Below, in pieces: positions 44,119-51,673 of a stretch of DNA of 64,000 bases. The position numbers and the translations under genes are program-made. Under the pieces are notes generated by a model. That model worked only from the letters and a program-made list of their open reading frames with translations. It did no database searches and had not been told where the DNA came from. Position 1 is the first letter of the stretch; each line of letters begins with the position of its first letter. This DNA comes from Herbiconiux sp. VKM Ac-1786. Lineage in GTDB: Bacteria > Actinomycetota > Actinomycetes > Actinomycetales > Microbacteriaceae. Location of the stretch: assembly GCF_015350805.1 (NCBI RefSeq), contig NZ_JADKSG010000002.1, forward strand, positions 1,178,001 through 1,242,000, read 5' to 3'.

Positions 44119-45222
44119 TCAAAAAAAGGAATACTCCAGCGCCAGCGCGATCAGCTCGTCGATCAGCTCGGGGTAGCTCAGCCCCGACGCGATCCAGCAC
44201 TTGGGGAACATCGAGATCGGCGTGAAGCCCGGCATCGTGTTGACCTCGTTCACCACGAAGCCGTCGGGCGTCAGGAAGAAGTCGACCCGGGCGAGCCCCG
44301 CCCCGTCGATGGCCGTGAAGGCACGCGCGGCGAGTTCCTGCATCTCGGACAGCTCGGCAGCGCTCAGCACGGCCGGGCAGACGAGGTCGACCCCGGGCGC
44401 GTCGAGGTACTTCGCGTCGAAGTCGTAGAACTCCCGCCCGGTCATCACGATCTCGCCCGCGAGCGACACCCGCGGCGCACCGCCGGCCCGCCCGCCGAGC
44501 ACGCCGCACTCGACCTCGCGGCCGACGACGGCCGACTCGATCAGCACCCGCGAGTCCTCCCGCAGGGCGGTCTCGATGGCGGCCGACAGCTCCGAAGGCG
44601 ACGACGAGCTGACCTTCGACACCCCCACCGACGACCCGGCCCGCGCGGGCTTGACGAACAGCGGCAACCCCAGCGACGAGGCCGCCGACAGCACAGACGA
44701 CGAGGACGAGGCCCACTGGTGCGCCGTCACCGTCTGCCACGGCGCCACCGCGATCCCCGCGGCCTGCAGCACGGTCTTGGTGAAGTGCTTGTCCATGCCG
44801 AGCGCCGACGCGAGCACGCCCGACCCCACGTACGGCAGCCCGACGAGCTCGAGCAGCCCCTGCACCGTGCCGTCCTCGCCGAACGGCCCGTGCAGGATGG
44901 GGAACACCACGTCGACGTCGCCCAGCAGGTCGACCGTGCCGTCGGCCCGCTGCACCGAGAGCGCGCGCGAGGCGGTCGACGCGGGCCACAGGATGCGCGT
45001 GCCGTTGTCGGAGACGACGGGCAGCGCCGAGGGGTCGAGCCGGAACTTCGCGGGCTCGTCGTCCTCGAGCACGAACGCGCCCTCGGCCGTGATGCCCACC
45101 GGGATCACGTCGAAGCGCGAGCGGTCGATCGCCTCAAGCACCCCGCCGGCCGTGGCGCAGCTGATCGAGTGCTCGCTGGAGCGCCCGCCGAACAGCACCG
45201 CCACCGTGGTCTTGCTTGGCAT
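44119..45222 (-). CDS. ddl: D-alanine--D-alanine ligase
   Basis: Ddl makes the D-Ala-D-Ala dipeptide for peptidoglycan. The 367-residue ATP-grasp enzyme has VAVLFGGRSSEHSISCATAG, VFPILHGPFGEDGTVQGLLE, GSGVLASALGMDKHFTKTVL, KPARAGSSVGVSKV and FVVNEVNTMPGFTPISMFPK. The ATG for MPSKTTVAV was chosen with AAAGGA upstream. Its first 89 bases lie inside the 3' end of gpsA in another frame, an unusually long overlap. It is the last gene of the leuC-leuD-murA-plsC-gpsA-ddl run. Confidence 0.96.
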   Translation of the reverse strand: MPSKTTVAVLFGGRSSEHSISCATAGGVLEAIDRSRFDVIPVGITAEGAFVLEDDEPAKFRLDPSALPVVSDNGTRILWPASTASRALSVQRADGTVDLLGDVDVVFPILHGPFGEDGTVQGLLELVGLPYVGSGVLASALGMDKHFTKTVLQAAGIAVAPWQTVTAHQWASSSSSVLSAASSLGLPLFVKPARAGSSVGVSKVSSSSPSELSAAIETALREDSRVLIESAVVGREVECGVLGGRAGGAPRVSLAGEIVMTGREFYDFDAKYLDAPGVDLVCPAVLSAAELSEMQELAARAFTAIDGAGLARVDFFLTPDGFVVNEVNTMPGFTPISMFPKCWIASGLSYPELIDELIALALEYSFF

Positions 45223-48457: not shown

Positions 48458-49054
48458 CTACTTGACCGGGAGTGTTCGAGGTCTCCAACTCTCCCGACGG
48501 CTCTCGAATTCCGTGATCGCCTCTTCGTCGCGAAGCGTCAGCCCGATGTCGTCAAGACCCTCGAGAAGCCTCCACCGAGTGTAATCGTCGATCGAGAAGC
48601 TGACTGTGAGGTCGCCGATGGCGGCGGTTCGCGCGATCAGGTCGACCGTGATCTCGACCCCGGGCTGCGCCTCGATGGCGGCCCAGAGCCGCTCGATGTC
48701 GGCCTCGTCGACCTGCCCGGTGAGCAGGCCCTGCTTGCCCGAGTTGCCGCGGAAGATGTCGCCGAAGCGCGAGGAGAGCACGGCGGTGAAACCGTAGTCG
48801 CGGAGCGCCCAGACGGCGTGCTCACGGCTGGAGCCGGTGCCGAAGTCGGGCCCGGCCACCAGCACGCGCGGGTTCTGGTAGGCGGGCTGGTTCAGCACGA
48901 ACTCGGGGTCGTTCCGCCAGCCGGCGAACAGCGCGTCCTCGAAGCCTGTCTTGGTGACGCGCTTGAGGTAGACGGCCGGGATGATCTGGTCGGTGTCGAC
49001 GTTGCCGCGCTTCAGCGGCACGGCCACACCGGTCAGGATGTCGATCTTCTCCAT
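48458..49054 (-). CDS. leuD: 3-isopropylmalate dehydratase small subunit
   Basis: LeuD is the swivelling small subunit of isopropylmalate isomerase in leucine synthesis. The 198-residue protein has [40 protein letters not shown] and [15 protein letters not shown], all diagnostic. It starts with ATG two bases after the leuC stop. It is under the control of the leucine-rich leader upstream of leuC. Confidence 0.97.
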
Positions 49055-49056
49055 GG

Positions 49057-50511
49057 TCAGACCTCCACGGTCTCGCGAGCGGCGGGTTCTGAGAGGTCGG
49101 AGACGCTCGAGAGCGTGCCCCGGATGGCGGTGGCCGCGGCCACCAGCGGCGACACCAGGTGCGTGCGCCCGCCCTTGCCCTGCCGGCCCTCGAAGTTGCG
49201 GTTGGAGGTGCTGGCGCAGCGCTCCCCCGGAGCCAGCTGGTCGGGGTTCATGCCGAGGCACATGGAGCAGCCCGCGAAGCGCCACTCGGCGCCGAACTCC
49301 TCGACGATCTTGTCGATGCCCTCGGCCTCGGCCTCGATGCGCACGCGCGCACTGCCCGGCACCACCATGACGCGCACGCCATCGGCCTTCTTCTGACCCT
49401 GGATCACCGAGGCGAAGGCCCGCAGGTCTTCGATGCGGCTGTTGGTGCACGAGCCCATGAACACGGCGTCGACGCGCACCTCCTTCAGCGGGGTGCCCGC
49501 CTCGAGGTCCATGTACTCCAGGGCCCGCTCGGCGCTGGCGCGCTCGTTCGGGTCGATGATCGTCGACGGGTCGGGCACGCGCTCGTTCAGCGAGACGCCC
49601 TGGCCGGGGTTCGTGCCCCAGGTGACGAACGGCTCGAGCTGGTCGGCGTCGAGGAACACCTCGGCGTCGAACACGGCGTCGTCGTCGGTCTGCAGGGTGC
49701 GCCAGTACTCGACCGCGGCGTCCCAGTCCTCGCCCTCGGGGGCGTGCGGGCGGCCCTTCAAATAGGCGAACGTCGTCTCGTCGGGCGCGACCATGCCGGC
49801 GCGGGCGCCCGCCTCGATCGACATGTTGCAGATCGTCATCCGCCCGTCCATCGACAGGCTCCGGATGGCCGAGCCGCGGTATTCCAGGACGTACCCCTGC
49901 CCACCGCCCGTTCCGATCTTCGCGATGACGGCGAGGATGATGTCCTTCGCGGTCACCCCTGGACGGAGCGTCCCCTCCACCGTGATGGCCATCGTCTTGA
50001 ACGGCTTCAGCGGCAGCGTCTGGGTGGCGAGCACGTGCTCGACCTCGCTGGTGCCGATGCCGAACGCCATGGCGCCGAAGGCTCCGTGGGTGCTGGTGTG
50101 GCTGTCGCCGCAGACCACCGTGATGCCGGGCATGGTCAGGCCGAGCTGCGGGCCGACGACGTGCACGATGCCCTGCTCGACGTCGCCGAGCGAGTGCAGG
50201 CGCACGCCGAACTCCTGCGCGTTCCGGCGCAGCGTGTCGATCTGGGTGCGGCTCGTCAGGTCGGCGATCGGCTTGTCGATCGCCAGCGTCGGGGTGTTGT
50301 GATCTTCGGTGGCGATCGTCAGATCGGGGCGGCGCACCGGGCGGCCCTCGGCGCGCAGGCCGTCGAAGGCCTGCGGGCTCGTCACCTCGTGCACCAGGTG
50401 CAGGTCGATGTAGAGCAGGTCGGGGCTGCCGTTCTCGCCCTTGGCGACGAGGTGGTCGTCCCAGACCTTCTCAGCCAAGGTGCGCGGGCGGACGGTGGGT
50501 TCGGGGCTCAT
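49057..50511 (-). CDS. leuC: 3-isopropylmalate dehydratase large subunit
   Basis: LeuC is the iron-sulfur aconitase-family subunit that isomerises 2- to 3-isopropylmalate. The 484-residue protein has [46 protein letters not shown] and the cluster ligands in [20 protein letters not shown] and [30 protein letters not shown] precedes ATG. A 14-residue leader peptide with five leucine codons and a strong hairpin lies directly upstream, so expression is probably controlled by leucyl-tRNA level. Confidence 0.97.
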
Positions 50512-50551
50512 TGCGTGTCCTTCTGAAGTAGGGGGTCAGCCATCGACAGAC

Positions 50552-50590
50552 TCCGCGACGAGGGAGGCCTGGAACTAGGACTCGTCGCGG
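50552..50590 (-). promoter_or_regulatory. leu attenuator hairpin
   Basis: CCGCGACGAG in the last codons of the leader peptide pairs perfectly with CTCGTCGCGG (10 base pairs, 18-base loop; plus-strand arms 50553-50562 and 50581-50590). A ribosome stalled on the leucine codons or released at the stop would change whether this stem forms. No T-run follows, so termination may be factor-assisted or the hairpin may have a partner structure nearer leuC. Confidence 0.65.
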
Positions 50591-50619
50591 CAGCTAAGAA
50601 GGAGCAGACCGAACAGCAC
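50575..50619 (-). CDS. leuCD leader peptide (attenuator)
   Basis: A 14-codon open frame, MLFGLLLLSCRDES if GTG is read as Met, has five Leu among the first eight codons, including two CTT, a rare codon in such high-GC DNA. It ends 63 bases before leuC. TACGAT ends six bases before its GTG, so the transcript would begin at the start codon. Leader peptides rich in the end-product amino acid are the signature of ribosome-mediated attenuation. Confidence 0.75.
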   Translation of the reverse strand: MLFGLLLLSCRDES

Positions 50620-50625
50620 GCGACG

Positions 50626-50631
50626 ATCGTA
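50626..50631 (-). promoter_or_regulatory. -10 hexamer of the leuCD operon
   Basis: TACGAT on the minus strand lies six bases before the GTG of the leader peptide. No convincing -35 box is seen at the normal distance. Confidence 0.5.
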
Positions 50632-50647
50632 CCACCCGCCCCCGCCG

Positions 50648-51673
50648 TCAGCGGGTGGGGTCGGACTCGGGGTCGGCGGCGGCCTTCAGCTCCTCCTTGA
50701 CCGGCACGCCGCGGCGGCGCATCACGATCAGGGAGGCGATCGTGGCGACCGCCATCGAGGCGATGATGACCGCGAGAGAGGTCCAGGTGTCGATCTCGGG
50801 GATCCACTCGATCGGCTCGCCGCCGTTGATGAAGAACACCTCGTTGGCGTGCAGCGCATGGAAGACGAGCTTCACACCGATGAAGGCGAGGATGAACGCG
50901 ATGCCGTACTTGAGGTAGATGAGCCGGTCGAGCAGCCCGCCGAGCAGGAAGTACAGCTGGCGCAGGCCCATCAGCGCGAACACGTTGGCGGTGAAGACGA
51001 TGAACGGGCTCTGCGTGATGCCGAAGATGGCCGGGATCGAGTCGAGCGCGAACAGCAGGTCGGTGGAGCCGAGCGCGATGAACACGATCAGCATCGGGGT
51101 GAAGACCTTCTTGCCGTCGATCACCGTGCGCACCTTGGCGCCGTCGAAGTCGGGGGCGATGCTCATGCGCTTGCGGAGGAAGGTGACGAGGCCGTTCTCG
51201 CCGTCGCCCTCGTCCTCCTTGCCGAAGGCCTGGCGGAAGGCGGTGACCAGCAGGAAGGCGCCGAAGATGTAGAAGATCCAGCTCAGCGACTCGATCAGCT
51301 GCGCGCCGATCAGGATGAAGATGCCGCGGAGCACCAGCGCGATGATGATGCCCACCATCAGCGCTTCCTGCTGGTACTTCCGGGGCACGTTGAAGCGCGC
51401 CATGATGATCACGAAGACGAACAGGTTGTCGATCGACAGGCTGTACTCCGTCAGCCAGCCGGCCAGGAACTGGCCCGCCGGCTCCCCGCCCGCGAACACC
51501 AGCATCAGCGCCGCGAAGACCAGCGCGAGCGCCACGTAGAACACGACCCAGAGGGTCGCCTCCTTGAACGAGGGCACGTGCGGACGCTTGAACGCGATCA
51601 GCAGATCGGCGGCGAGGATCAGCACGAGCACCACGAGCGAGGTGATCTCGAAGGCGATGGGGAGTTCTAGCAC
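50648..51673 (-). CDS. TerC-family membrane protein (probable Mn2+ exporter)
   Basis: This 341-residue protein has about eight to nine membrane segments and the TerC hallmark acidic motifs: YSLSIDNLFVFVIIMARFNV in the first half and FIALGSTDLLFALDSIPAIF in the second. Members linked to yybP-ykoY riboswitches export manganese or load it into secreted enzymes. The upstream region contains such a riboswitch-like element, which supports metal homeostasis rather than tellurite resistance. The start is ATG. It lies 29 bases upstream of the leu leader start and runs in the same direction. Confidence 0.93.
   Translation of the reverse strand: MLELPIAFEITSLVVLVLILAADLLIAFKRPHVPSFKEATLWVVFYVALALVFAALMLVFAGGEPAGQFLAGWLTEYSLSIDNLFVFVIIMARFNVPRKYQQEALMVGIIIALVLRGIFILIGAQLIESLSWIFYIFGAFLLVTAFRQAFGKEDEGDGENGLVTFLRKRMSIAPDFDGAKVRTVIDGKKVFTPMLIVFIALGSTDLLFALDSIPAIFGITQSPFIVFTANVFALMGLRQLYFLLGGLLDRLIYLKYGIAFILAFIGVKLVFHALHANEVFFINGGEPIEWIPEIDTWTSLAVIIASMAVATIASLIVMRRRGVPVKEELKAAADPESDPTR

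Follow-up and report, generated by a model that had tools for sequence, protein, structure and literature searches.

The short leader upstream of leuC in Herbiconiux sp. VKM Ac-1786 is almost certainly a LEU element, the riboregulator of leuA in actinobacteria, placed here before leuC. The presented data argue for a real and conserved element of a known kind in a new placement, with a mechanism that is probably translational. The original prediction for this 64,000-nucleotide stretch of DNA (the window) had been that a leucine leader is aimed at leuC-leuD, and our results support it; the published target is leuA, so that the placement before leuC is unusual.

The leader frame reads, on the minus strand, GTG CTG TTC GGT CTG CTC CTT CTT AGC TGC CGC GAC GAG TCC TAG, with leucine at codons 2, 5, 6, 7 and 8, two of these being CTT. 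The predicted frame of 14 codons with five Leu codons in its first eight positions was thereby confirmed, and so were the rarity of CTT (in ten genes of the window it accounts for 4 of 376 Leu codons, whereas in 176 leaders it reaches 353 of 710), the TACGAT sequence on the minus strand (50631-50626) six nucleotides before the GTG, and the perfect 10-bp hairpin, with a loop of 18 nt, that overlaps the frame. The element is longer than first described and extends to the Shine-Dalgarno sequence of leuC (Table 1). Taken singly, this leader is inconspicuous. The fold energy of the RNA, including 12 nt upstream of the GTG, was not exceptional (z -1.26), a sigma-70 pattern scan returned no promoter with both hexamers and no recognisable -35 at the leader, and the families of Rfam 15 gave no relevant match to the leader region at gathering score or at E<=10. 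With fold energy and promoter scan both unremarkable, it is conservation that provides the evidence for the element being more than a chance arrangement.

Table 1. Positions in the window of the leuC leader, its proposed pairing strands and the neighbouring genes.
Feature	Positions	Strand	Remarks
Extended -10 box TGG TACGAT	50626..50634	minus	sequence; ends 6 nt 5' of leader GTG
Leader frame, 14 codons + TAG, peptide MLFGLLLLSCRDES	50575..50619	minus	probably leaderless
Leader start GTG	50619-50617	minus	
Leader stop TAG	50577-50575	minus	inside hairpin loop
Leu codons 5-8 (CTG CTC CTT CTT)	50596..50607	minus	proposed leucine sensor
UCCUUCU within Leu run	50597..50603	minus	proposed anti-Shine-Dalgarno strand of base stem
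Hairpin 5' arm CCGCGACGAG	50581..50590	minus	sequence, covariation
Hairpin 3' arm CTCGTCGCGG	50553..50562	minus	sequence, covariation
AGGCC in hairpin loop	50566..50570	minus	proposed pseudoknot strand
GGCTG	50537..50541	minus	proposed 3' pseudoknot strand
leuC Shine-Dalgarno AGAAGGA	50518..50524	minus	6 nt 5' of ATG
leuC, 3-isopropylmalate dehydratase large subunit	49057..50511	minus	NCBIfam TIGR00170, 750 bits; ATG at 50511
leuD, small subunit	48458..49054	minus	NCBIfam TIGR00171; 2 nt after leuC
TerC/Alx family gene, upstream neighbour of leuC	ends at 50648	minus	

Of 40 related genomes, 28 contain a match to the leuC leader region at E<=0.001. The Herbiconiux genome itself holds a second copy on the same contig, 461 kb off and before leuA (locus L029; target by tblastn), which is 94% identical to the leuC copy across 86 nt and encodes the identical leader peptide. 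From the 40 genomes we gathered 49 elements, 21 before leuC and 28 before leuA, leaving out locus L050, which has no leu gene. Those before leuC came from all 16 genomes of the Herbiconiux genus and from five of nine other genomes of the family, and none was found before leuC in the 15 genomes from other families of the order. Every one of the 49 has a Leu-rich short frame whose start is preceded, at 5-7 nt, by a TANNNT box. A larger set has this box 5-8 nt 5' of the start in 137 of 150 elements, and a shift control found it in place in 136 of 148 and at seven shifted positions in 0 to 3 of 148, although the in-place figure is favored by the fact that start codons were chosen partly by the box. 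Among the 13 elements that do not have the box, eight encode MRFGLLLLSCRGEGL, identical to LeuL1 of S. lividans. The conserved box and, for leuA, the RNA-seq of S. lividans lend indirect support to transcription starting at the leader start codon, so that the leader frame is probably leaderless. A further constant feature is the stop codon, which falls within the hairpin loop in 174 of 176 elements.

The leader peptides before leuC are of more than one type. Those of genomes G002-G009 and G011-G015 (loci L004-L014, L016 and L017) are of the type VLFGRLLLRCRDES or close variants of it, in which one Leu is replaced by Arg and the flank of the Shine-Dalgarno sequence is altered; those of G000, G001 and G010 have the leuA-type peptide. 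In several genomes of the genus (L004, L006, L007, L016 and L017) the leuC frame also seems to be open upstream of the usual start, and a possible N-terminal extension of the protein would there sit between element and leuC.

Covariation supports the hairpin and the pseudoknot. Elements were found with a covariance model (R1) and thinned at 80% similarity to 73 representatives; pairs were counted in 66 of these, aligned without structure, seven having been left out for doubtful placement of the hairpin. The hairpin is paired in 99.8% of cells, with four of its ten pairs changed on both sides, and the pseudoknot columns in 78.5%. Together they contain 53 cells changed on both sides, as compared with 6-17 when the partners are slid, and on each of five measures at most one of 500 shuffles did as well. 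In a hand-chosen 52 of the 66 representatives two of the five shuffle measures were not significant (73 and 99 of 500). In permutation runs, the counts of which are inflated throughout by the relatedness of the elements, the loop pairs with its own 3' segment at a mean of -13.45 kcal/mol, against -11.75 kcal/mol when permuted (0 of 5000; 73 representatives).

The same approach showed that the Leu-codon run pairs better with the Shine-Dalgarno sequence of the gene it precedes than with those taken from other loci, an observation that is new here. The energies were -12.10 for own and -11.10 for permuted partners in 69 representatives (2 of 5000), with the energy of absent duplexes capped in this run, and control segments gave 417 and 2271 of 5000. 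For leuA representatives alone the counts were 70 of 5000 for the base stem and 1 of 5000 for the pseudoknot, and for leuC representatives alone 135 and 155 of 5000, which is modest support. The full set of 175 related elements was uninformative because control segments likewise reached 0 of 5000. The leuC type of the Herbiconiux window pairs UCCUUCU with AGAAGGA, and the other leuC type in the genus pairs UCCUUCG with CGAAGGA. When the leader was folded together with 32 nt of leuC, the best fold contained both the base stem (50597-50603 with 50524-50518) and the hairpin; the leader RNA cut at the AUG had a different best fold, without the base stem.

These parts are the ones by which the LEU element was described before leuA in Actinobacteria by Seliverstov et al. 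2005 (PMC1262725): a leader peptide with a Leu run, a pseudoknot, and a base stem that joins Leu codons to the Shine-Dalgarno sequence. The upstream frame with its Leu run, the hairpin with its pseudoknot and the base stem are all present, the pseudoknot being supported over all representatives and more weakly for the leuC copies alone. The element also precedes a leucine gene, but that gene is leuC, leuA of the same genome having a homologous copy of its own; the difference from the element of 2005 lies in the target, leuC-leuD. The leucine passages of that paper concern ilvB, leuS and leuA, and do not name leuB and leuD. Our search of an open-access library turned up no leader described for leuC or leuCD of actinobacteria, and no earlier report of a LEU element before leuC. 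Close in kind is LeuL1, the leuA leader of S. lividans, which is leaderless by RNA-seq and has no typical terminator (PMC8079986). It shares with the leuC leader the five Leu codons, the lack of a typical terminator, the core LLLLSCR and, probably, the leaderless start, and differs from it in preceding leuA and in the end of the peptide. Leaderless upstream frames with a codon run are also present in mycobacteria, where they respond to cysteine, precede other genes and are said to act by translation attenuation (Canestrari 2020, cited in PMC13236596).

The pairing of the Leu codons with the Shine-Dalgarno sequence of leuC points to control of translation initiation, and we consider it rather likely, on the strength of modelling, that the element works as a translational attenuator. 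According to this hypothesis transcription would start at the GTG, so that translation of the leader peptide sets in at the very 5' end of the message. When charged tRNA-Leu is ample, the ribosome would pass the Leu codons and end at the UAG in the hairpin loop, after which UCCUUCU could pair with the Shine-Dalgarno AGAAGGA, drawn close by hairpin and pseudoknot, and leuC, with leuD presumably coupled to it, would be poorly translated. Under leucine shortage it would be expected that the ribosome waits on codons 5-8 and covers the pairing strand, leaving the Shine-Dalgarno sequence free and allowing leuC-leuD to be made. The modelled openness of the Shine-Dalgarno sequence in the window copy was 0.24 for free RNA; a ribosome placed on the Leu codons brought it to 0.51, and one at the stop to 0.32. 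Covering the Leu codons raised the modelled openness in 51 of 62 leuC, 82 of 94 leuA and 8 of 10 leuA2 elements, and did not raise it in 11 of the 62 leuC elements.

Leader peptides of this sort are known to act at the level of transcription before actinobacterial operons such as ilvB1NC of M. tuberculosis (PMC13236596), and translation of the leuC leader could likewise decide whether transcription ends early, by an intrinsic or Rho-dependent route, or continues into leuC. A loose criterion for T-rich sequence 3' of the hairpin is indeed satisfied by 38 of 188 elements. We nevertheless regard such transcription attenuation as unlikely, insofar as a pattern scan of this region of the window detected nothing resembling a terminator, the leader of S. 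lividans leuA is reported to be without a typical terminator (PMC8079986), and it is the Shine-Dalgarno sequence with which the Leu run has kept its pairing. The classical form, in which a terminator hairpin is followed by a U tract, was set aside since no such structure was found. What stands of the attenuator originally predicted is a leucine-responsive leader; that it is a classical transcription attenuator has become improbable, given a Leu run that pairs with the Shine-Dalgarno sequence and the lack of a terminator-like site. Translational attenuation is favored by the modelled openness, the fold with the base stem, the stop codon in the loop and that same lack of a terminator-like site.

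Seliverstov and co-workers noted that codon changes in the leuA leader of S. coelicolor are at odds with classical attenuation and, from these published changes and the phylogenetic pattern, preferred an element bound by a protein (PMC1262725). Applied to leuC, the element would be a binding site for a leucine-sensing protein or another factor and the reading of codons incidental, and the highly conserved sequence of the hairpin fits such a site. We find this improbable, even more so than transcription attenuation, since all 49 elements from the related genomes retain the Leu run and the presumed leaderless start although other codons vary, and since covariation indicates that the hairpin sequence is able to change by compensation. 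Under translational attenuation a single run of Leu codons may serve two purposes, sensing leucine and masking the Shine-Dalgarno sequence by pairing, and this would explain the results of the codon changes in Streptomyces leuA: in the model, changes to the Leu codons also break the hiding stem, and mixed results would be expected. The long-standing choice between codon sensing and protein binding can now be put to the test by compensatory changes.

The model R1 finds a match in 191 of the 199 genomes of the family, which we take to be Microbacteriaceae; the 26 best named leuC relatives all belong to it. Across the phylum it matches 32 of 296 genomes, with filters that lose weak matches. Among 191 examined matches, 188 precede a leu gene, namely leuA, a second leuA, leuC and, once, leuB; the ratios between these targets are meaningless because some places are doubled and the sampling is uneven. 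L218, L228 and L229, which have weak scores and no leu gene downstream, were dropped as false matches. Ten further weak matches include seven that precede a leu gene and three (L263, L266 and L267) that do not. The element is thus a module found on leuA, on the second leuA, on leuC and, by two weak matches, on leuB, which amounts to a set of natural replicates, with joint changes of Leu codons and Shine-Dalgarno sequence.

Several of these placements differ in detail. Several genomes of the family have, before the second leuA paralogue, a variant element, mostly with the stem CCACGGCGGGG (L219, L220, L223-L227, L230, L231, L239, L264, L265 and L268). The weak matches before leuB are L234 (G308) and L259 (G025), each from a genome belonging to another family of the order, and both have leader frames and a pseudoknot-like pairing. 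In a distant family (L260 in G331, L262 in G275 and L217 in G298) the leader ends in VLLIL or similar and is followed by a hairpin; leaders of this type precede leuC, at about 550 nt, and leuA-like genes, and are perhaps another branched-chain leader.

The placement before leuC occurs in most sampled genera of Microbacteriaceae and at none of the loci outside, which is new. In 60 genomes of the family that we picked, one per genus, passing over several small or incomplete genomes, the best leuC locus is preceded by the element in 45. Among the best 80 leuC loci listed, a sample that leaves distant leuC genes outside and that very divergent elements could escape, it is found at 19 of 27 Microbacteriaceae loci and at 0 of 53 loci outside the family. 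At L106 and L108, two Microbacteriaceae loci where leuC does not have the element, a TANNNT box lies just 5' of the gene, and the leuC mRNA may there be leaderless.

In other actinobacteria leuCD is adjoined and controlled by NdgR/LtbR (PMC4340878), which has the same target genes as the element here but is a DNA-binding protein of the IclR type and not an RNA. Within the same best 80 loci listed, 51 of the 53 outside Microbacteriaceae have a divergent NdgR-like gene next to leuC, the two others being L118 (family unstated) and L134; within the family the count is 0 of 27, and one of these loci (L087) has 633 nt upstream only. For whole genomes the query was the NdgR-like protein of the Pseudarthrobacter locus L107, whose identity as NdgR comes from position and similarity. 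At E<=1e-40 orthologues were found in 107 of 111 genomes from other families of the same order, and the 199 genomes of the family gave none. Among all genomes searched for the order 107 of 119 have such an orthologue, and eight of the twelve misses are Microbacteriaceae. The best matches in 25 genomes of the family were distant IclR paralogues with E no better than 1.5e-17, and those in 15 other genomes of the order were all at 1.9e-85 or better; the strong matches outside the family serve as the positive control that an empty result calls for. The lack of NdgR/LtbR across the sampled Microbacteriaceae genomes is new here. It may be, and we hold the arguments to be evenly balanced, that Microbacteriaceae lost NdgR/LtbR and copied the leuA riboregulator before leuC, an RNA taking over from a protein; the element before leuC is also absent from 15 of the 60 genera and from 8 of the 27 named Microbacteriaceae loci. 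The absence of NdgR, together with the leuC element in most sampled genera, is an unexpected correspondence and provides a clean comparative case in which a protein has possibly yielded to an RNA regulator.

The original prediction had extended the leader's reach to a long operon, leuCD-murA-plsC-gpsA-ddl, which would tie envelope synthesis to leucine. Co-transcription is plausible from the tight spacing and overlapping frames, the gaps being 2 nt between leuC and leuD, 23 nt between leuD and murA (with the start of murA chosen by us) and 11 nt between murA and plsC, followed by overlapping frames of gpsA and ddl. Leucine control over this run is, however, very unlikely in our judgement. All 27 Microbacteriaceae loci examined have murA after leuD, the 19 with the element as well as the 8 without, and outside the family murA lies within 300 nt of leuD at 22 of 53 loci; the order of leuD and murA is hence independent of the element, and synteny is silent on control by leucine. 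Moreover, a switch at the Shine-Dalgarno sequence of leuC need not reach murA. The coupling of leucine to cell-wall and lipid genes was on these grounds set aside, and the proposed link to murA-plsC-gpsA-ddl is unsupported. Farther along this run, the start of ddl and the gpsA frame, as the latter is open in this sequence, share 89 nt (window positions 45134-45222).
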